A stretch of 32,746 nucleotides of DNA, taken from the NCBI GenBank assembly GCA_009694085.1, contig SHVW01000020.1, positions 1 to 32,746 of the forward strand. The letters run 5' to 3'. This document shows positions 5,745 through 25,286 of the stretch, one piece after another. The stretch's first letter is position 1. Each line of letters opens with the position of its first letter. Made by a program: the position numbers and the translations under genes. The notes beneath the pieces are model-generated. The model made no database searches, was not told where the DNA came from, and saw only the letters and a list, made by a program, of their open reading frames with translations. This DNA is from Alphaproteobacteria bacterium. GTDB lineage: Bacteria; Pseudomonadota; Alphaproteobacteria; SHVW01.

Positions 5745-6155
5745 CTAAATGTCCCTTGCCTTGGCACCCCCCCCCCTTGTGGGGGAGGGTAGGGTGGGGG
5801 GCGATGCTTCCGCCGCCGCAGATGCCAGACGCAGAAGTGTTTGTCGAACCGATTCGAGAACAACATCGGCGTGCTGGAGCACTTCGTTGTTCCAGAAGCG
5901 AATGATAGTGACGCCTTGGGACTCGAACCACGCCGTACGCTTCGAGTCATAGGCCGCATCTTCGGTATGTTGGCCGCCATCGATTTCGATTATCAGCCGT
6001 GGGGCATAGCAGGCGAAATCTGCGATATAGTGACCGATCGGCGCCTGCCTGCGGAATTTGAAGCCTTTCATCTGGCCGAGCCGTAGCTTCGACCATAGCC
6101 GACGCTCCGCATCGGTGGCGTCACGACGGAGTTTCCTGGCTCGGGCGACGGTCAT
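5745..6155 (-). CDS. DUF559 (Vsr/PD-(D/E)XK-like) endonuclease-domain protein
   Basis: A 136-residue DUF559 protein. The N-terminus ARKLRRDATDAERRLWSKLR and the core FKFRRQAPIGHYIADFACY ... LIIEIDGGQH ... DSKRTAWFESQGVTIIRFWN carry the conserved Asp, Glu-x-Asp and His of this very-short-patch-repair-like nuclease family. Its substrate is unknown. The start ATG overlaps the carA stop (ATGA at 6152-6155) and the stop lies 6 bp before carB, so it is wedged inside the carAB operon. The last residues (PPTLPSPTRGGGAK) are a translation of a REP-like hairpin at 5767-5801. A second, inverted copy sits in the end of carA. This suggests a REP-gene-REP insertion. The family assignment is firm; the role is not known. 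Confidence 0.9.
   Translation of the reverse strand: MTVARARKLRRDATDAERRLWSKLRLGQMKGFKFRRQAPIGHYIADFACYAPRLIIEIDGGQHTEDAAYDSKRTAWFESQGVTIIRFWNNEVLQHADVVLESVRQTLLRLASAAAEASPPTLPSPTRGGGAKARDI
5767..5801 (+). repeat. REP-like GC hairpin, copy 1
   Basis: A CCCCC stem, TTGT loop and GGGGG stem (772-785) are followed by the tail AGGGTAGGGTGGGGGGC. The same hairpin-plus-AGGNTAGG-TGGGGG plan recurs at 6164-6199 (opposite orientation) and 25311-25344. Here it is translated as the C-terminus of the DUF559 protein. No T-run follows, so it does not look like an intrinsic terminator. Confidence 0.75.
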
Positions 6156-12338: not shown

Positions 12339-12493
12339 CGTTTTTCGCAAAATAACCGCAGCCAAACCGTTTTTCATGAAAAAATCACTTTTCATGGTAT
12401 TATCTGCCGTGAGCCGTAATTGACGGAGCGGCGGTTTTTCATGTCTACCAAAACCAAACGTCGTTTTTCAGGGCCGGTAACGGTTTTTCATGA
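12339..12493 (+). promoter_or_regulatory. Fic promoter with repeated GTTTTTCA boxes (putative operators)
   Basis: Copies of (C/G)GTTTTTC(A/G) occur with T-runs at 12341, 12370, 12389 (four Ts), 12435, 12464 and 12484. The second forms a perfect 14-bp palindrome TTTTTCATGAAAAA (12370-12383). A -10-like TATTAT lies at 12398-12403; a poor -35 would fall inside the palindrome. The fourth copy spans the ATG and the last two are inside the coding sequence. This layout suggests repression by a factor binding several boxes, possibly autoregulation. Confidence 0.45.
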
Positions 12494-13988
12494 CAGACGT
12501 CTTCCGGAAAGGGCCACGCCAGCTGGATATGCCGCCCTCATTGATGCCTACGAACTTGCGGTGCCTCTGCCGCGCATGCTCTCCGCGACGGGCGAGCGCC
12601 ACCGGGTAACCAACGAAGCGGGATGGCGTATCCTGACGCCCCGGCATGCGCCACCGCCGGGCCTCGACGCCCATCTCACATTCGCTCTCAAATACGAAGG
12701 GCTCGATCTTGCTGTCCTCAAACGCCTGTTCTCTATCGTTGGTTCGAGCGAGGTCGAAGCCCTAGTCCGGGCGCGGCCGACCGGCAGATATGCGCGACGC
12801 ATCTGGTTTCTTTACGAGTGGTTGACCGGACGGCGCCTCGATCTTCCCGATGCCGGCGCGGGCACGTATGTGCCGGTCGTCGATCCCGACCAACAATGGG
12901 CGACCGCCGGCGACAACGTGCGGCGTCATCGCGTCAGAAACAATTTGCCGGGCACGCCGGCCTTCTGCCCGCTGGTGTTCCGGACGGGAACGCTGGACGA
13001 GTTCGTCGCGATGGATTTGTCCAAGCGCGCCCGGGCGGCGGTCGCCGATGTGCCCCGCGATCTCCTTGCTCGCACAGCGGCGTTCCTGCTCCTAAAGGAC
13101 TCGAAGTCGAGCTACGCCATCGAAGGCGAAACCGTACCGCACGACCGCATCCAACGTTGGGGACGTGCGATCGGGGAGGCCGGTCGCCGGCCCCTCGACC
13201 TGGATGAGTTATTGCGACTACAGCGGATCGTCATTGGCGACGCACGATTTGTGCAGCTCGGTCTTCGCCGCGACGGCGGTTTCGTCGGCCAGCACGACCG
13301 CGACAGCGGCATGCCGCTGCCGGACCATATCGGCGCGCGCCCCGACGACCTGCCGTTCCTGATCGACGGCATGATCGCCTTTGACCAGCGGCCCGCACAA
13401 GAACTCGACGCCGTCATTGCCGCCGCCGTGCTGGCTTTCGGGTTCGTGTATGCGCATCCCTTCGCGGACGGAAACGGCCGACTTCACCGCTATCTCATTC
13501 ATCGCGTGCTGGCCAAGCGGGGTTTCAATCCGCCCGGCGTCGTATTTCCCGTGTCCGCCGCGATCCTCGAACGGATCGACGATTATCGTCATGTGCTGGA
13601 GGATTACGCCCGGCGATTGTTGCCGGCGATCGATTGGGAGTCCACCACTGTTGGCAACGTCAATGTGCTCAACGACACCGGAGATTTCTACCGCTTCTTC
13701 GATGCCACGCCGCATGCCGAATTTCTCTATGCCTGCGTGCGTAAGACGATCGAGGAAGATCTGCCGAACGAAGCCGCCTTCCTCCGGCGTTACGATCGGT
13801 TCCGCGCTGACGTCGAAGCGATTGTCGACATGCCGGACCGCACGATCGATCTGCTGTTCCGATTCCTTCATCGGAATCACGGCCGTCTATCGAAGCGCGC
13901 GCGCATGGGCGAATTTGCCGAGCTGACCGAGGCCGAAGTGCCGCAAATCGAGCGAATCTACGAGGATGTCTTTCGTGCCGCTCGGTAG
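12441..13988 (+). CDS. Fic-family AMP-transferase, class II (inhibitory motif N-terminal)
   Basis: A 515-residue Fic protein. The catalytic loop HPFADGNGRLHR (His339 to Arg350) matches HPFx(D/E)GNGRxxR completely, so it should be able to transfer AMP (or another nucleotide) to protein hydroxyls. The autoinhibitory (S/T)xxxE(G/N) motif is present as Ser224-Tyr-Ala-Ile-Glu228-Gly, N-terminal to the Fic core, which defines class II. The N-terminal 200 and C-terminal 120 residues are unassigned; the latter could carry a DNA- or target-binding module. ATG 12441 is preferred over an in-frame TTG at 12420; GGAG lies about 12 bp upstream. It is the sole gene of the tRNA mini-island. No separate antitoxin gene is visible, consistent with inhibition in cis. 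Target unknown. Confidence 0.93.
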   Translation: MSTKTKRRFSGPVTVFHDRRLPERATPAGYAALIDAYELAVPLPRMLSATGERHRVTNEAGWRILTPRHAPPPGLDAHLTFALKYEGLDLAVLKRLFSIVGSSEVEALVRARPTGRYARRIWFLYEWLTGRRLDLPDAGAGTYVPVVDPDQQWATAGDNVRRHRVRNNLPGTPAFCPLVFRTGTLDEFVAMDLSKRARAAVADVPRDLLARTAAFLLLKDSKSSYAIEGETVPHDRIQRWGRAIGEAGRRPLDLDELLRLQRIVIGDARFVQLGLRRDGGFVGQHDRDSGMPLPDHIGARPDDLPFLIDGMIAFDQRPAQELDAVIAAAVLAFGFVYAHPFADGNGRLHRYLIHRVLAKRGFNPPGVVFPVSAAILERIDDYRHVLEDYARRLLPAIDWESTTVGNVNVLNDTGDFYRFFDATPHAEFLYACVRKTIEEDLPNEAAFLRRYDRFRADVEAIVDMPDRTIDLLFRFLHRNHGRLSKRARMGEFAELTEAEVPQIERIYEDVFRAAR

Positions 13989-18502: not shown

Positions 18503-18584
18503 GCACCGGGTGTCGGCGGCATCCGCGAGGGCCGCCATCAGGCTATAATGCGCTAACTTCGTCGGCTCCCTGGGGAGGCGATCG

Positions 18585-18979
18585 GTGCAGTCGCAGACCG
18601 TGATCTTCAGCCGTCTGGTGCGCGATTTCATGCGCGCGGCGCCGGTTGCTTGCTCGCTGGGTACACCAGTGGCCGAGTTGATCCAGCGCATGGCCGCATC
18701 GCCGGCATCGTCACCGAGCAGGACGTGACGCGCCGCGTCGCCTATCGGGTCGCGGCCGACACGGCCGCGGAAGCGGTGATGAGCCGGCCGGTCCAGAGCG
18801 TATCGGCGGAGGAATATCTCTACCGCGCGGTCGCGCGCATGCGCCGCAGCGGCCTGCGCCACATGCCCGTGGTCGACGGCGCCGGCCGGCCGATCGGCGC
18901 GCTCGACCTGCACGACGCGCTGGCGGCGACCATGGCTGCAAGCGCCGCCTCGCCGTCGCGTGCCACGCGCACCTCATAG
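18585..18979 (+). pseudogene. CBS-domain protein (DUF294-type) with internal deletion and lost 3' end
   Basis: A GTG at 18585 with GGGGAGG 6 bp upstream and TATAAT at 18543-18548 opens VQSQTVIFSRLVRDFMRAAP...VAELIQRMA. That frame stops soon afterwards. The continuation, GRIAGIVTEQDVTRRVAYRV, lies in a different frame from 18692. The missing middle of CBS domain 1 suggests a deletion between short GGCCGC repeats. The second CBS domain is complete ([21 protein letters not shown] ... [15 protein letters not shown]). After [13 protein letters not shown] the sequence turns into the antisense of a response-regulator gene. Intact relatives carry a nucleotidyltransferase-like domain after the CBS pair. 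This copy cannot encode one. Confidence 0.75.
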
Positions 18980-19056
18980 CCCGCCTGTTTCATCAGGAAT
19001 TCCAGCGACAGCACGATATTGGGCTCGTCATCGACGAGCAGGACCGAGCGTGCCAT
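18930..19056 (-). pseudogene. Response-regulator receiver domain, N-terminal fragment
   Basis: The minus-strand frame from the ATG at 19056 reads [20 protein letters not shown], then [19 protein letters not shown]. This is the start of a CheY-like receiver with the acidic pair DDE. The family would continue to the phosphorylated Asp (LVLLD), but after about residue 42 the sequence becomes the antisense of the CBS gene. Phosphoacceptor and output domains are absent. The fragment meets the CBS remnant tail to tail. Confidence 0.8.
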
Positions 19057-19163: not shown

Positions 19164-19192
19164 TTGGCGGACGAACTGGCAAGGTCTATGAT
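19164..19192 (+). promoter_or_regulatory. Predicted sigma70 promoter of the CHAT-CHASE2 operon
   Basis: TTGGCG (19164-19169) and TATGAT (19187-19192) are 17 bases apart. Transcription would begin near 19199, 37 nt before the CHAT ATG at 19236. This argues against the in-frame starts further upstream. Confidence 0.55.
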
Positions 19193-19235
19193 TGGCTTGG
19201 CGCGAGGCGATTTCCGCTTGGGGGAGGGTGTTCCC

Positions 19236-22200
19236 ATGGCGCATGCAGTGGGCTGGAATGCGTTGGTGTTGGCCATTGGTTTGGGATTGGCCGTCGCCGT
19301 GGTTGTTGGGTTGCCGCCGCATGCGCGCGGCGAGTCGGATAATCCCGTGACGACCGCGCCCGCCCAGACCGGCAGGCCCCAGACCGGCAGGCCCCAGGGC
19401 GGCCCGCCCGCCGGCGGCCGGGATCCATCGGCACCGGGCCAGGCGGCGCCCGCCGCGGGCGCCCAGGGGTCGGGCAGCCCCGCGCCGATGATGCGTCAGA
19501 ACACCGAGGCCGGCGCTTCGCAATTGTTGGACGACACGTTGGCGGTCGACCCCGAGCGGATCGCGCGCGCCCGGGCCAAAGCCGAGGAGGCACCGCCGCA
19601 AACCGCGGACCAGAAGGAACTGGCCGAGTTCTATCGGCTGCGTGCGCTCGCGGCGCAGGTCGCCGGCCGTCAGGGCCAGGCCATGAAAGACTTCCGCCAG
19701 GCGGTCGTTCATGCCGAGCAGGCGCCCGGCTTCAATCTCGGCGAGCTGTATGCCCTGTTGGCCCGGGCGCAGGGCAGCATGGCACGCCGGGTGGCAGCCT
19801 ATCGATCCGCCGAGAAGGCGATCGCGGCGACCCCCAATGTCATGCACGGGCAACGCATCGCATACTATTTCTTTCTTGCAGGCCAGGCTGTGAGCGCGGG
19901 TCATCTCGACGTCGCCGAGCGTGCGCTGAGCGACGCGCGCAAGCTGGTCGAACAGATGTCCGGCATGCGCGGCGTCCCGGTCGAGGCCCGGCAAATGTGG
20001 GGAATCTCGCTATTGAGCGTCCAAGGCGGGCTTCTTCAGGCCAAGGGGCAGTATGTCGAGGCGGAGGATTTCATGCGGCGTGCCATAGCGCAGGCAGAGG
20101 CCAGCACGAATCCGCGCGCGCCGGGGCTGCGCGATCAGTTTCGCATGAGCTTGACGCACAACTACATTGCCCAGGGACGCTTGACCGAGGCGGAGAACGA
20201 GGTGCGCCTTGTGCTCGCCAGCGCCCAGCGCCAGGGCGGTACCAAGGGCCTACAGACCGCTGCGAGCTTGGGCACCCTTGCTAGGGTGATGTCCGAGCAG
20301 GGCCGGCTCGGGGAGGCCGAGGGGCTGGCGCGCAAAGCGCTCGAGCTGGTCCTGGCGAACGGATTGCAGGGACTCGGCCCGAGCCGCATCAACCTCGCCA
20401 ATGTCCTCGCCCTGCAAGGGAACTGGGCCGAGGCCTGGAAGGAGTTCGAGACTAACCGCCAGGGGCTCAGAGATTCGCCGGAGGAGCTTGAGGTCTACCT
20501 GCGCGGCAACCTTGCCTTGCCGATCGTGATGGTCAAAACCGGGCGGGCGGCGGAGGCGGTGTCCATGCTGGCCGAGCAGGTCAAGAACCAGCTCGCCCTG
20601 CTCGGCGACAAGGATTACGGCACGGCCGAGTTGCGCGGCATCTACGCTATGGCGCTGGCGGAGAGCGGTCAGCGCGACCAGGCGCTCGCCGAATTCGATC
20701 AGGCCGTGCCTGTTCTGCTCAGCCGGTCGCGCGAATCCGATGACGACGCCTCGTCGGCCTCGGCTAGGGATCAACGTCTGCGCCTGATCCTGGAAGCGAA
20801 GATGCGGCTGACCGCCGAGCGCGGCGGCGCCGACGCGGCCGGCCAGACGTTCCAGCTTGCCGAGGCGGCACGCGGCCGCAGCGTGGCGCGGGCGTTGGCG
20901 GCGTCGGCTGCCCGCGCCGCCGCCAGCAATCCGGCGCTGGCCGATCTGGCCCGGCGCGAGCAGGACGCCCAGCGTCAGGTCTCGGCGCTCAACGGACTGC
21001 TCGCCAATGCGATCAGCGCGCGCGCCGACGAGCAGGATGCGGCGGCGGTCAAGGCCTTGCGCGCGCGCATCGATGGGTTGCGCGACGCGCGCGCGCGCGC
21101 CATGGAGGAGATCGAGGCGAAATTCCCGGACTATGCTCAGTTGATCAACCCGAAACCGGCCTCGATCGAGGCGGCGCGCAAGCATCTGAAGGCCGACGAG
21201 GCCCTGATCGCGCTCTACAGCGCCGAGGATCGCAGCTATGCCTGGGCGGTGCCGGCGCAGGGCGCGCCGGCTTTCGTCGCCTGGGCGATGGGACGCGCCG
21301 AACTGGCCGCGCTGGTCGAGGGGCTGCGCAAGGCGCTCGACCCCAATGCCGAATCGCTCGATGACATCCCTGCCTTCGATCTGGCGGCGGCTCACAAGCT
21401 TTATGCCGGGCTGATCCAGCCGGTCGAAGCGGGTTGGAAATCCGCCAAGAGTCTGCTGGTCGTGCCGCACGGGCCGCTTGGCCAGATCTCGCTCGCCTTG
21501 TTGCCGACCGCGCCTGCCACGCTTGCCGCGGCCAAGGGCGAGCCGTTCGCCGCTTATCGCCAGGTGCCCTGGCTGCTGCGCCGGGCGGCGGTATCGCAAT
21601 TGCCGTCGGTCGCCTCGCTCGCCACGCTGCGCGCGCTGCCGGCGGGCAACGCCAGCCGCCGCGCCTTCGTCGGTTTCGGCGATCCGCTGTTCAGCACGGC
21701 GCAGGCCGCCGAGGCGGCGCCGCAAACGGCCGCGGTCACCATGCGCGGCGGCAAGATCAAGCTGCGCAGCGCGCCGAAGGCGTCGGGCATCGACGTGACG
21801 GCCGAACTCGGCCAATTGCCGCGCCTGCCCGAGACGGCCGACGAGGTGAAGAGCGTGGCACTGACGCTTAAGGGCGATCCGGCGCGCGATTTGTTCATCG
21901 GCGCCCAGGCGACCAAGGCGACCGTGTCCAAGGCCAATCTCGCCAACTATCGCGTCGTCATGTTCGCCACCCACGGCCTAGTGCCGGGCGATCTGACCGG
22001 CCTCGGTCAACCGGCGCTGGCCTTGACCAGCCCGGCGGTGACGCCCGATGGCGGCAACGGCTTGCTGACCATGGAAGACATCCTGGCGCTCAAGCTCGAC
22101 GCGGATTGGGTCGTGCTGTCCGCCTGCAACACGGCCTCGGGGCAGGGGGCGGGGGCGGAGGCGATCTCGGGCCTGGGCCGCGCCTTCTTTTATGCCGGCA

Positions 22201-22442
22201 CGCGAGCGCTGCTGGTCAGCAATTGGCCGGTTGAAACCACATCGGCGCAGAAGCTGACCACCGATCTGTTCGCGCGTCAGGCCGCCAATCCCGCGCTGAC
22301 CCGCGCCGAGGCGTTGCGCCAGGCCATGTTGGGACTGATCGACGGTCCTGGTCCCGCCGATGGCGCGGGCAAGCCGATATTCAGCTACGCCCACCCGATC
22401 TTCTGGGCCGCCTTCACCCTGGTCGGCGACGGCGGCCGCTAG
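19236..22442 (+). CDS. TPR-CHAT caspase-like protein, membrane/secreted N-terminus
   Basis: 1068 residues from an ATG with GGGGGAGGG 8 bp upstream. A hydrophobic segment (about 6-27, WNALVLAIGLGLAVAVVVGL) ending in LPPHARGE is a signal peptide or anchor. A Pro/Gly/Gln-rich linker (about 35-85) has a repeated QTGRP. TPR-like helical pairs fill about 110-520 (GRLTEAENEVRLVLASA, GRLGEAEGLARKALELV). A coiled region (about 590-690) leads to a C-terminal CHAT domain. The caspase-like dyad is intact: His913 in MFATHGLVPG and Cys964 in VVLSACNTASG. The ending FSYAHPIFWAAFTLVGD is typical of CHAT. CHAT proteins are clan CD peptidases related to separase. Substrate unknown. First gene of a three-gene operon with a CHASE2-cyclase. 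Confidence 0.93.
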   Translation: MAHAVGWNALVLAIGLGLAVAVVVGLPPHARGESDNPVTTAPAQTGRPQTGRPQGGPPAGGRDPSAPGQAAPAAGAQGSGSPAPMMRQNTEAGASQLLDDTLAVDPERIARARAKAEEAPPQTADQKELAEFYRLRALAAQVAGRQGQAMKDFRQAVVHAEQAPGFNLGELYALLARAQGSMARRVAAYRSAEKAIAATPNVMHGQRIAYYFFLAGQAVSAGHLDVAERALSDARKLVEQMSGMRGVPVEARQMWGISLLSVQGGLLQAKGQYVEAEDFMRRAIAQAEASTNPRAPGLRDQFRMSLTHNYIAQGRLTEAENEVRLVLASAQRQGGTKGLQTAASLGTLARVMSEQGRLGEAEGLARKALELVLANGLQGLGPSRINLANVLALQGNWAEAWKEFETNRQGLRDSPEELEVYLRGNLALPIVMVKTGRAAEAVSMLAEQVKNQLALLGDKDYGTAELRGIYAMALAESGQRDQALAEFDQAVPVLLSRSRESDDDASSASARDQRLRLILEAKMRLTAERGGADAAGQTFQLAEAARGRSVARALAASAARAAASNPALADLARREQDAQRQVSALNGLLANAISARADEQDAAAVKALRARIDGLRDARARAMEEIEAKFPDYAQLINPKPASIEAARKHLKADEALIALYSAEDRSYAWAVPAQGAPAFVAWAMGRAELAALVEGLRKALDPNAESLDDIPAFDLAAAHKLYAGLIQPVEAGWKSAKSLLVVPHGPLGQISLALLPTAPATLAAAKGEPFAAYRQVPWLLRRAAVSQLPSVASLATLRALPAGNASRRAFVGFGDPLFSTAQAAEAAPQTAAVTMRGGKIKLRSAPKASGIDVTAELGQLPRLPETADEVKSVALTLKGDPARDLFIGAQATKATVSKANLANYRVVMFATHGLVPGDLTGLGQPALALTSPAVTPDGGNGLLTMEDILALKLDADWVVLSACNTASGQGAGAEAISGLGRAFFYAGTRALLVSNWPVETTSAQKLTTDLFARQAANPALTRAEALRQAMLGLIDGPGPADGAGKPIFSYAHPIFWAAFTLVGDGGR

Positions 22443-22466
22443 AACGAAGTCATAGGAGCGATGACC

Positions 22467-23129
22467 ATGCGAATCCTGACCCTTGCGAGTGCCGCGCTGT
22501 TGCTCGCCACGCCCGCACTCGCCGCACCCGCGGCTATCGTCGAGGATGCCGAGGGCGGCGTCGTCGGCGTCGAGGCGCTCGACTATGTCGATGCCGGCCG
22601 GGTGATCGAACTCAAGCCCGGCGGCGTGCTGGTCCTGGGCTATCTCAAGAGCTGCGTGCACGAGACCATTCGCGGCGGCGGCACGGTCAAGATCGGCGCC
22701 GAGCAGTCCGAGGTCACGGGCGGGCGGGTCGAGCGCAAGACCAATCCATGCGATGGCGGCAAGCTCCAACTGACCACGGCCCAGGCCGGCAAAAGCGGCG
22801 CCATGGTCTTCCGCAAGGCGCCGACGGCACAAGCTGGCGCCGCTAAATCCGCCGCCGCCGATTTGACCATCTACGGCATCAGCCCGGTGGTGGCGCTGGG
22901 CGCTGGCGCGGCGGCGAAAAATCGGATCACTTTCGAGCGGATCGACCAATCAGGCGCGCCGATCGCGGTCGATGTCACCGGCGCCAAGACCGATCTCGCC
23001 AAATCCGGGGTCCGGCTGGCACCGGGCGGGCTCTACCGGGCGAGCGCGGGCGAGCGCAGTTTGGTGGTTCAGATTGATGCCGCCGCCGCATCCGGCGGTC
23101 CCGTAACCGGGCGGCTGATCCAGTTCTAA
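22467..23129 (+). CDS. Secreted small protein with two conserved-looking cysteines
   Basis: 220 residues. A clear signal peptide MRILTLASAALLLATPALAAP predicts cleavage at ALA-AP near residue 20. The mature part begins as a beta-rich module (RVIELKPGGVLVLGYLKSC) with cysteines in LKSCVHE and NPCDGG that could form a disulfide. A second glycine-rich beta module follows (GLYRASAGERSLVVQID). The ATG at 22467 is preferred to the ATG at 22461 because AGGAG is 8 bp before it but only 2 bp before the other. I do not recognise a named family; FecR-like or other envelope beta folds are possible. It lies 24 bp after the CHAT gene and 6 bp before the cyclase, so it very probably works with them. Confidence 0.85.
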   Translation: MRILTLASAALLLATPALAAPAAIVEDAEGGVVGVEALDYVDAGRVIELKPGGVLVLGYLKSCVHETIRGGGTVKIGAEQSEVTGGRVERKTNPCDGGKLQLTTAQAGKSGAMVFRKAPTAQAGAAKSAAADLTIYGISPVVALGAGAAAKNRITFERIDQSGAPIAVDVTGAKTDLAKSGVRLAPGGLYRASAGERSLVVQIDAAAASGGPVTGRLIQF

Positions 23130-23135
23130 GTCCCA

Positions 23136-25286
23136 GTGGCCGCTAAACCGCGCGATCTGGCGGCGACCGGCGCCATCGCGCTTGCCGCCGCCTTGCTTTT
23201 CGCGACGCCGCTCGCTCCGTTGCTCGAAGGCCTGTCGATCGACGCCCTGTTCTGGCTGCGCCAGCGCGCGTTCGGCCCGCTCCACCCGGCCGCCGACAGT
23301 CCCGCCGTCGTGCTGGCGATCGACGAGGAAACCTATCGCCGGCCGCCCTTCGCCGATTTGCCCCAGGCCCTGTGGACGCCCGAACTGGGCCGCGCGCTCA
23401 ACGCCGTGCTCGACGCCGGGGCCAAGGTGATCGGTTTCGACGTGGTCTATCCGACCTCGGTCGAGCCGCTGCTGCGCGGTTTCGAGCGCGACTATCTGCT
23501 GGCGCTGCGGCGCGGCGGGCGCGAGGGGCGCATCGTGCTCGGCCGGGTGCAGCATCAGGAGCGGCCGATCGCGCCTTTCGCCGGCCACGCCATCGCGGTC
23601 GGCCGCGACGCCAATATCCGCGCGCTCAACGTGTTCGAGGACGATGATGGCATCATCCGCCGCTTGCCTCTGACCTTCCGCGTTGGGGCCGCCGCGACCG
23701 CCGCCGCGCGCGAGAACGCGCTGGCCGTCGAACTGGCCGCGCGCGCCCAGGGTCTGCCCGCCGGCACCCTGCCCACGGAAGGGCCGGATGGGCGCTATAC
23801 CCTGGGCGCCTATCGCTTGCCCAGAGATCGCGGGGAAACTCTGGTGGTCAACCACGGTGGCGGTGCCGGCGATATCCCGACCTATTCGCTGGCCGACATC
23901 CATGCCTGCGCCGCGGCGGGGCGGACGGATTACCTGGAGACGCATTTCAAGGGCCGGGTCGTGCTGCTCGGCACCGTGCTCGATGTGGAGGATCGCAAGC
24001 TCACCTCCAAACGCTGGATCACCACGCCCGAAGGCGAGGGCCTGTCCGCGCGCTGCGTGCATCCCGTCATGTCGGGGCTCTATCGCGCCGGTTTCCGGCG
24101 CGATGCCATTCCCGGCGTCTATATCCATGCCGCCGGCATCAACAATCTGCTGCGCGGCGATGGGCTGGCGCCGCTCGGCGCCGGGCCTAGCTTTGCGCTC
24201 AGCCTCGGCTTCGCCCTGGTGGTGGCCGCCGCCGCCATGACGCTGGCGCCACCGATGGCGGGCGGCGCGGTGGCGCTGACGGCGCTCGCCTGGATCGCGG
24301 TGGCGACATTGGCATTCCGCCATGGAACCGTGCTGCCGCTGTTCCAGGCGCTGGCCTCGGGTCTCGCCGCCTTCCCCGCGCTGATGGCCTGGCGCTTCCT
24401 GGTGACCGATAGCGACCGGCGCCGCCTCGGCCAGGCCTTCGGCCTCTATCTGCCCCGGGCGGAGATCGACCGCATGATGGCCCAGGGCCGGCCGCCCGAG
24501 CTGGGCGGCGAGGCGCGCGCGGTCTCCATCCTGTTCTCCGACATCGCCGGCTTCACCGCGATCAGCGAGAAGCGCGATCCCGCCCGGCTGATCGAGGATC
24601 TCAACCAGTATTTCGCCGCCATGACCGAGATCGTGGAAGCCCAGGGCGGCTTCGTCGATAAATTCATCGGCGATGCCGTGGTCGCCGTATTCGGCGCGCC
24701 TGTGGCCGATCCCGATCACGCCAGGCGCGCCGTGCTGGCCGCCATCGAGATGCGCCGCGTGCTGGCCGACGAGGCCGCTCGCTTCACGCTGGGCGACGGC
24801 CAGCCCGTGCGCGCGCGCATCGGCGTCAATTCTGGCATGGCGCTGGTCGGCAATATCGGCTCGCCCCGGCGCTTCAACTACACGGTCATGGGCGACGCCG
24901 TGAACCTGGCCGCGCGGCTGGAGGGCGCCAACAAGGGCTACGGCACGCAAATCCTGGTCAGCGCGGATACCGCGGACGCCTGCGGCGCCGCTATCGTGTT
25001 CCGCGAGATCGACCGCGTGCGCGTGGTCGGCCGCACCGCGCCGGTCGGCTTGCTGGAACCGTTGGCGCCGGCCGAAGCGGCCACAGCGGCCGATCGGGCG
25101 AGAGCCGAGTCTTTCGCTGCCGCGCTGGCGCTATGGCGGACGGGTGATTTCGCCCAAGCCCGCGCGGGTTTCGCGGCGCTGGCACCCGCCGATGGCGCGG
25201 CGGCGAAATTCGCGACGCGCGCCGAAGCCATGGCCAAGGCGCCGCCGCGCGATTGGGACGGGGTGACGGATTTACGGGAGAAGTAG
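23136..25286 (+). CDS. CHASE2-domain adenylate cyclase (class III)
   Basis: 716 residues from a GTG. An N-terminal helix (about 8-30) leads into a periplasmic CHASE2 sensor (about 35-345; VVLAIDEETYRRPPF, AKVIGFDVVYPT, FKGRVVLLGTVLD, IPGVYIHAAGINNLL). Three membrane helices span about 352-425 and a cytoplasmic cyclase domain runs from about 460 to 650. Catalytic residues are all present: metal ligands Asp469 (FSDIAGF) and Asp513 (FIGDAVVAVFG), adenine-selecting Lys509 and Asp587 (TVMGDAVN), and transition-state Asn590/Arg594. It should therefore make cAMP. The ORF starts 6 bp after the secreted-protein stop. Third gene of the CHAT operon; a REP-like hairpin lies just after its stop. Confidence 0.96.
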   Translation: MAAKPRDLAATGAIALAAALLFATPLAPLLEGLSIDALFWLRQRAFGPLHPAADSPAVVLAIDEETYRRPPFADLPQALWTPELGRALNAVLDAGAKVIGFDVVYPTSVEPLLRGFERDYLLALRRGGREGRIVLGRVQHQERPIAPFAGHAIAVGRDANIRALNVFEDDDGIIRRLPLTFRVGAAATAAARENALAVELAARAQGLPAGTLPTEGPDGRYTLGAYRLPRDRGETLVVNHGGGAGDIPTYSLADIHACAAAGRTDYLETHFKGRVVLLGTVLDVEDRKLTSKRWITTPEGEGLSARCVHPVMSGLYRAGFRRDAIPGVYIHAAGINNLLRGDGLAPLGAGPSFALSLGFALVVAAAAMTLAPPMAGGAVALTALAWIAVATLAFRHGTVLPLFQALASGLAAFPALMAWRFLVTDSDRRRLGQAFGLYLPRAEIDRMMAQGRPPELGGEARAVSILFSDIAGFTAISEKRDPARLIEDLNQYFAAMTEIVEAQGGFVDKFIGDAVVAVFGAPVADPDHARRAVLAAIEMRRVLADEAARFTLGDGQPVRARIGVNSGMALVGNIGSPRRFNYTVMGDAVNLAARLEGANKGYGTQILVSADTADACGAAIVFREIDRVRVVGRTAPVGLLEPLAPAEAATAADRARAESFAAALALWRTGDFAQARAGFAALAPADGAAAKFATRAEAMAKAPPRDWDGVTDLREK

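Follow-up and report, generated by a model that had tools for sequence, protein, structure and literature searches.

Organization of the locus

The window analysed here, a stretch of 32,746 nucleotides from an alphaproteobacterial assembly (GCA_009694085.1, contig SHVW01000020.1), contains three consecutive genes on the forward strand. They encode a TPR-CHAT protein (19236..22442, 1068 aa), a small exported protein of an unnamed family, termed MID in the following (22461..23129, 222 aa), and a class III nucleotide cyclase with a CHASE2 domain (23136..25286, 716 aa); the first and the third were assigned from the open reading frame together with Pfam matches. The TPR-CHAT start at 19236 has the sequence GGGGGAGGG about 7 nt 5' of the start codon. 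An earlier note, made from the letters of this DNA alone, had described an operon of three genes in 6 kb with gaps of 24 and 6 bp behind one good promoter. The three genes and the 6-bp gap between MID and the CHASE2-cyclase gene stand, but the gap between CHAT and MID is 24 bp only if counted to the second ATG of MID (M3) and 18 bp to the first. The promoter claim had to be dropped: the sigma70-like match on the forward strand at 19164..19192, about 45 bp 5' of the CHAT start, is weak, agrees at just 9/12 positions and carries no weight as evidence.

Within the window the locus is surrounded by housekeeping genes (carAB, dnaG, rpoD). A DUF559 endonuclease-like gene lies between carA and carB (5745-6155), and a Fic-domain protein (PF02661) is encoded 3' of rpoD (12420-13988). 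Just 5' of the operon, at 18557-19056, a forward-strand CBS-domain ORF ending at 18979 abuts the start of a reverse-strand response-regulator gene (~18957-19056). Both look truncated, by a rearrangement or an assembly join. The source assembly comprises 3.08 Mb at 70.6% completeness, with one CHAT gene found and CHASE2 matches on three contigs. By sequence, the near relatives are Alphaproteobacteria, many of them of the Rhodospirillales type, including Azospirillum, Tagaea and Reyranella.

Domain architecture of the three proteins

The TPR-CHAT protein is composed of an N-terminal hydrophobic export signal or anchor (residues 9-27), a proline-rich linker, a TPR array (TPR_12, E = 1.3e-17) and a C-terminal CHAT caspase-fold domain (PF12770, E = 1e-49). 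With the start at 19236, the catalytic dyad falls on His913 and Cys964, as read in the earlier note, and it is conserved in every relative whose alignment covers those columns; Cys964 is the sole cysteine of the whole protein. The CHAT match and the intact dyad place the protein among the TPR-CHAT caspase-fold proteases. When the N-termini were read by eye, lipobox signals (LLAAC, LLTSC, LVSC, LAGC) were recognized in most complete relatives and Sec signals in the remaining ones, including the window protein, whose own N-terminus is without a lipobox and without a clearly positive n-region. Because lipoprotein signals in most relatives are complemented by Sec signals in the others, the CHAT protein should be exported and face the periplasm, as a lipoprotein in most relatives; the N-terminal signal or anchor claimed earlier is thus supported at the level of prediction. 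The lipoprotein signals and conserved dyad of the CHAT relatives are new observations. To our knowledge, hardly any bacterial CHAT protein outside CRISPR has been assigned to a pathway.

MID carries a signal peptide, a beta domain (24-94), an Ig/FN3-like domain (135-221) and two cysteines, Cys65 and Cys97, whose invariance in the family alignments suggests that they form a disulfide. An AlphaFold2 model (pLDDT 85.7) has the signal segment and two beta domains at these positions. The second of them resembles Ig/FN3 folds weakly, the Foldseek search of MID against the PDB having returned just Ig/FN3-like matches to the C-terminal domain, none with E < 0.001. We found no solved structure related to MID by sequence, no Pfam or NCBIfam match for the window protein and no Pfam match for 17 family members. 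Two candidate identities were rejected. MID is not a FecR protein (PF04773), given the missing Pfam match in the 17 members and an hhalign probability of 0.5% against CHASE2-linked FecR proteins, nor is it MtxA, since the domains DUF7354, MtxA_IG-like and MtxA_C are absent from the window family and the hhalign probability is about 1%.

The product of the third gene matches CHASE2 (PF05226, E = 1.2e-24) and Guanylate_cyc (PF00211, E = 9.6e-26). One transmembrane helix (12-30) precedes the periplasmic CHASE2 ectodomain and three (353-371, 376-394, 399-417) follow it ahead of the catalytic domain (461-633), a topology that fits CHASE2-class III adenylate cyclase receptors. The motifs SDIAGFT (468), DKFIGD (508), VMGD (584) and NLAAR (590) are present with their metal, substrate and transition-state residues, in agreement with the earlier reading of an intact catalytic site, and the Lys/Asp specificity residues suggest ATP as substrate. 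As far as we know, CHASE2 domains are widespread among bacterial receptors, most of them with no established ligand or mode of control.

Clustering of CHAT and CHASE2 genes

The survey set consisted of 190 alphaproteobacterial genomes, 89 with CHASE2 and 41 with CHAT, and complete CHASE2 lists were available for the CHAT-bearing genomes. The earlier note had stated that CHAT and CHASE2 genes co-occur in some bacteria, and the comparison with chance that had been fixed in advance bears this out: we counted 18 CHAT-CHASE2 pairs at most 5 kb apart against 0.53-0.58 expected in the Alphaproteobacteria and, in 58 CHAT-carrying genomes of other Pseudomonadota, at least 15 against about 1, where the expectations assume random placement and independent genomes and the p-values are indicative because some genomes share a genus. 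Ten of the alphaproteobacterial pairs are co-directional with CHAT first and one with CHASE2 first; in the other seven, the two genes are on opposite strands. All pairs listed for the other Pseudomonadota are co-directional, with CHAT leading. The domains are separated by 730-920 bp in those ten pairs, which leaves space for one small gene. In most pairs one exported gene does lie between CHAT and CHASE2, the usual order being CHAT, small exported gene and CHASE2-cyclase. A literature search for “CHAT domain” together with “CHASE2”, extending mostly to journals without subscription, found no paper.

Exported proteins beside CHASE2

The family of the window protein, MID1, is a new finding: an unnamed, mostly alphaproteobacterial family encoded beside CHASE2. 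Homologues were present in 16 of the 190 genomes and adjoined CHASE2 at 13 of 18 loci. A named genome collection yielded 31 loci, mostly from Alphaproteobacteria, with one MAG labelled Gammaproteobacteria and one Rokuibacteriota; in this set, which includes some cut contigs and five duplicate records of the 190-genome set, the CHASE2-cyclase gene is directly 3' of MID in 27 loci, CHAT is nearby in 15 and a Peptidase_C14 caspase in 7. The check on the conservation of the middle gene, which the earlier note had named as partner or substrate of CHAT, was therefore positive. In L022 and L024, MID was found beside a C14 caspase gene (a fragment in L024) with no adjacent CHASE2-cyclase; a HAMP-GAF-PAS cyclase is encoded ~3 kb away from MID in L022.

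Where MID1 is missing from a CHAT-CHASE2 locus, the gap is usually taken by a different exported protein. MID2, likewise unnamed and ~235 aa long, occurs in 20 of the 190 alphaproteobacterial genomes, and 17 of its 24 loci adjoin CHASE2. Its model has two beta domains, as in MID1, and its C-terminal domain matches the MalQ Ig-like domain (E = 6.5e-4); profile comparison relates the two families over 39 N-terminal columns only (hhalign 91%). In L098, L099 and L100, MID2 is extended at its C-terminus by a segment that by eye resembles DUF4384. In other proteobacteria the gap holds an MtxA-type protein (DUF7354, MtxA_IG-like and MtxA_C) or DUF928. Among 139 CHASE2 domains, FecR was encoded within 4 kb of 44, MID1 or MID2 of 32, and both of only one (OR 0.05, p = 2e-5), as would be expected if they were alternative partners of a single receptor domain. 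MID takes the CHASE2-adjacent place that is held elsewhere by FecR, MID2, MtxA or DUF928, which is a new observation.

Caspase-fold genes and locus variants

Genes for caspase folds, either CHAT or Peptidase_C14, go with the MID1/MID2 type of CHASE2 locus. With MID1 or MID2 nearby, 17 of 32 CHASE2 domains have such a gene at a distance of at most 5 kb, versus 6 of 107 without (OR 19, p = 1e-8), and this association is also new. An exported Peptidase_C14 caspase replaces CHAT at some loci and is added to it at others. Such a gene lies between CHAT and MID in L061 (7460-8908), L064 (7646-8935) and L066 (7551-8918), giving two caspase folds per operon in the order CHAT, C14 (which carries a signal peptide and has its His-Cys motifs intact), MID and CHASE2-cyclase. 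In L030 and L033, the caspase gene and MID are divergently oriented. Azospirillum and several Hyphomicrobiales have MID and the cyclase with no CHAT or C14 nearby, so the protease is not required for the basic pair; taken with the C14 found at other loci, the Azospirillum arrangement also means that MID is not specific to CHAT. CHAT-linked loci are distributed across most branches of the cyclase tree with several changes, and Azospirillum forms a group without a protease nearby, where some labels of “none” in the tree reflect contig ends.

Two loci include large exoproteins. L084, from a MAG labelled Gammaproteobacteria, encodes directly 5' of MID and the CHASE2-cyclase a haemagglutinin-like repeat protein that ends in a Peptidase_C14 domain (10-2895). 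Clustered in L049 (5798-14710) are a CHASE2 protein of 485 aa with no cyclase, an exported 298-aa protein similar to the exported partner at other loci, a CHAT lipoprotein and a haemagglutinin-like exoprotein of the TPS type; clusters of this kind have relatives in G143 and G121, and the existence of CHASE2 loci lacking a cyclase is again a new observation.

Discussion

We propose a tentative model, to which we give a little less than even chances, in which the three genes form an envelope module and the exported caspase-like protein acts on the CHASE2 ectodomain via an exported adaptor, changing cAMP. The TPR-CHAT protein would be exported and, in most relatives as a lipoprotein, kept in the envelope; there its TPR array could recognize an envelope or external cue, upon which the caspase-like His-Cys dyad would become active or be released. 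MID would be the partner or substrate of CHAT and would lie against the CHASE2 ectodomain, in the place taken beside other CHASE2 proteins by those of the FecR type, MtxA or DUF928. The state of MID, or its cleavage, would alter the ectodomain and through it the cAMP output of the cytoplasmic class III domain. Physical contact, proteolysis, the direction of the signal, the ligand and cAMP as the product are what we infer in this model. It draws on the linkage and order of the genes, the predicted export, the conserved catalytic residues, the mutual exclusion of the partner families and the additional caspases at these loci; the loci with MID and cyclase but no nearby protease, the cyclase-free L049 and the missing lipobox of the window's CHAT protein speak against it.

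Two precedents support it. In S. meliloti, the outer-membrane beta barrel NsrA is needed for the response of the CHASE2 cyclase CyaK to an external protein signal, and the NsrA-CyaK/CyaD1/CyaD2-Clr system resembles the window in that CHASE2 cyclases are driven by an outside cue through an extracytoplasmic partner (PMC7529298, PMC13001267). It differs in that this partner is an outer-membrane beta barrel and no protease is described. Csx29 of Craspase is reported to be a proteolytically active TPR-CHAT protein (PMC10028731), in which TPR is likewise fused to a CHAT caspase-fold protease (PMC10028731, PMC9729208). There, however, the protein is cytoplasmic with an RNA-guided CRISPR partner, whereas the window CHAT is predicted to be exported and its gene is next to that of a membrane cyclase.

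Related gene arrangements are known. MtxA of magnetotactic bacteria (MGR_0208 cluster) has a signal peptide, its gene is followed by that of a CHASE2-cyclase, and deletion of mtxA was without visible phenotype; the paper does not mention CHAT (PMC4439547). As in the window, an exported protein with an N-terminal beta region and an Ig-like domain is encoded directly 5' of the CHASE2-cyclase (PMC4439547), and at non-alphaproteobacterial loci an MtxA-type protein lies between CHAT and the CHASE2-cyclase in the same place as MID, but the C-terminal domain of MtxA is TPR-like and no sequence relation between MtxA and MID could be detected. In Campylobacterota, the genes clustered with those of CHASE2 cyclases encode a phosphodiesterase, a TPR protein and an outer-membrane protein of the FecR type (PMC9239204). 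These clusters share with the window the combination of CHASE2 cyclase, extracytoplasmic partner and TPR protein, and differ by FecR instead of MID, a TPR protein described without CHAT and the extra phosphodiesterase. A metacaspase-CHASE2 fusion recorded in Trichodesmium (PMC3501461) also links a caspase fold to a CHASE2 sensor, although in one polypeptide and with the caspase predicted to be cytoplasmic.

The signal could run in the reverse direction, with CHASE2 and the exported partner controlling an envelope protease that processes surface proteins and cAMP being a side output or absent. At L049, CHASE2 occurs without a cyclase, so the unit that it forms with the exported partner and CHAT can exist without a cAMP output, and CHASE2 could be what controls the protease, which is encoded there next to a TPS-secreted haemagglutinin-like protein; the caspase domain at the end of the haemagglutinin-like repeat protein of L084, next to MID and CHASE2, points the same way. 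The window and most MID1 loci nevertheless have a cyclase and no adjacent exoprotein gene, and we consider this reading unlikely. It is rather improbable that TPR-CHAT is a non-proteolytic adaptor that holds MID against CHASE2, its catalysis being unused for signalling. TPR arrays are protein-binding scaffolds and the FecR-type CHASE2 clusters of Campylobacterota include a TPR protein (PMC9239204), but the His-Cys dyad is kept in all relatives covering those columns, and C14, which also recurs as a neighbour, likewise has a caspase fold whose dyad is intact.

Conflict systems often include caspase folds, and the cyclase domain shows the weak resemblance to the Pycsar cyclases of PADLOC that is shared by any class III domain. 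A defence or regulated-death module, in which a nucleotide cyclase and caspase-like proteins are triggered by envelope attack, would nonetheless be surprising: neither CHAT nor MID matches any PADLOC model, the protease, MID and CHASE2 are predicted to face the periplasm, no cyclic-nucleotide effector is adjacent and the surroundings are housekeeping genes. That the genes are neighbours without a functional link would accommodate the MID-cyclase pairs without CHAT, yet the survey contradicts it, with co-localization at 15 to 30 times expectation and a fixed order in separate classes, and we find it scarcely credible.

Under the favoured model of an envelope protease acting through MID, our findings suggest a little-studied form of envelope signalling that is a variant of the CHASE2-cyclase/partner systems already known. 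They assign the same place next to CHASE2 to MtxA, FecR, DUF928 and the new families. Extending the model, it is conceivable, if on balance doubtful, that Pseudomonadota share a wider class of such systems, with periplasm-facing caspase-fold proteases (CHAT lipoproteins or Peptidase_C14) acting on interchangeable exported adaptors (MID1, MID2, MtxA, DUF928) that gate CHASE2 receptors. If true, regulated proteolysis in the periplasm would control a second messenger of bacteria. The conserved unit of CHAT, adaptor and CHASE2 offers a small system in which to test how an envelope protease could control cAMP.
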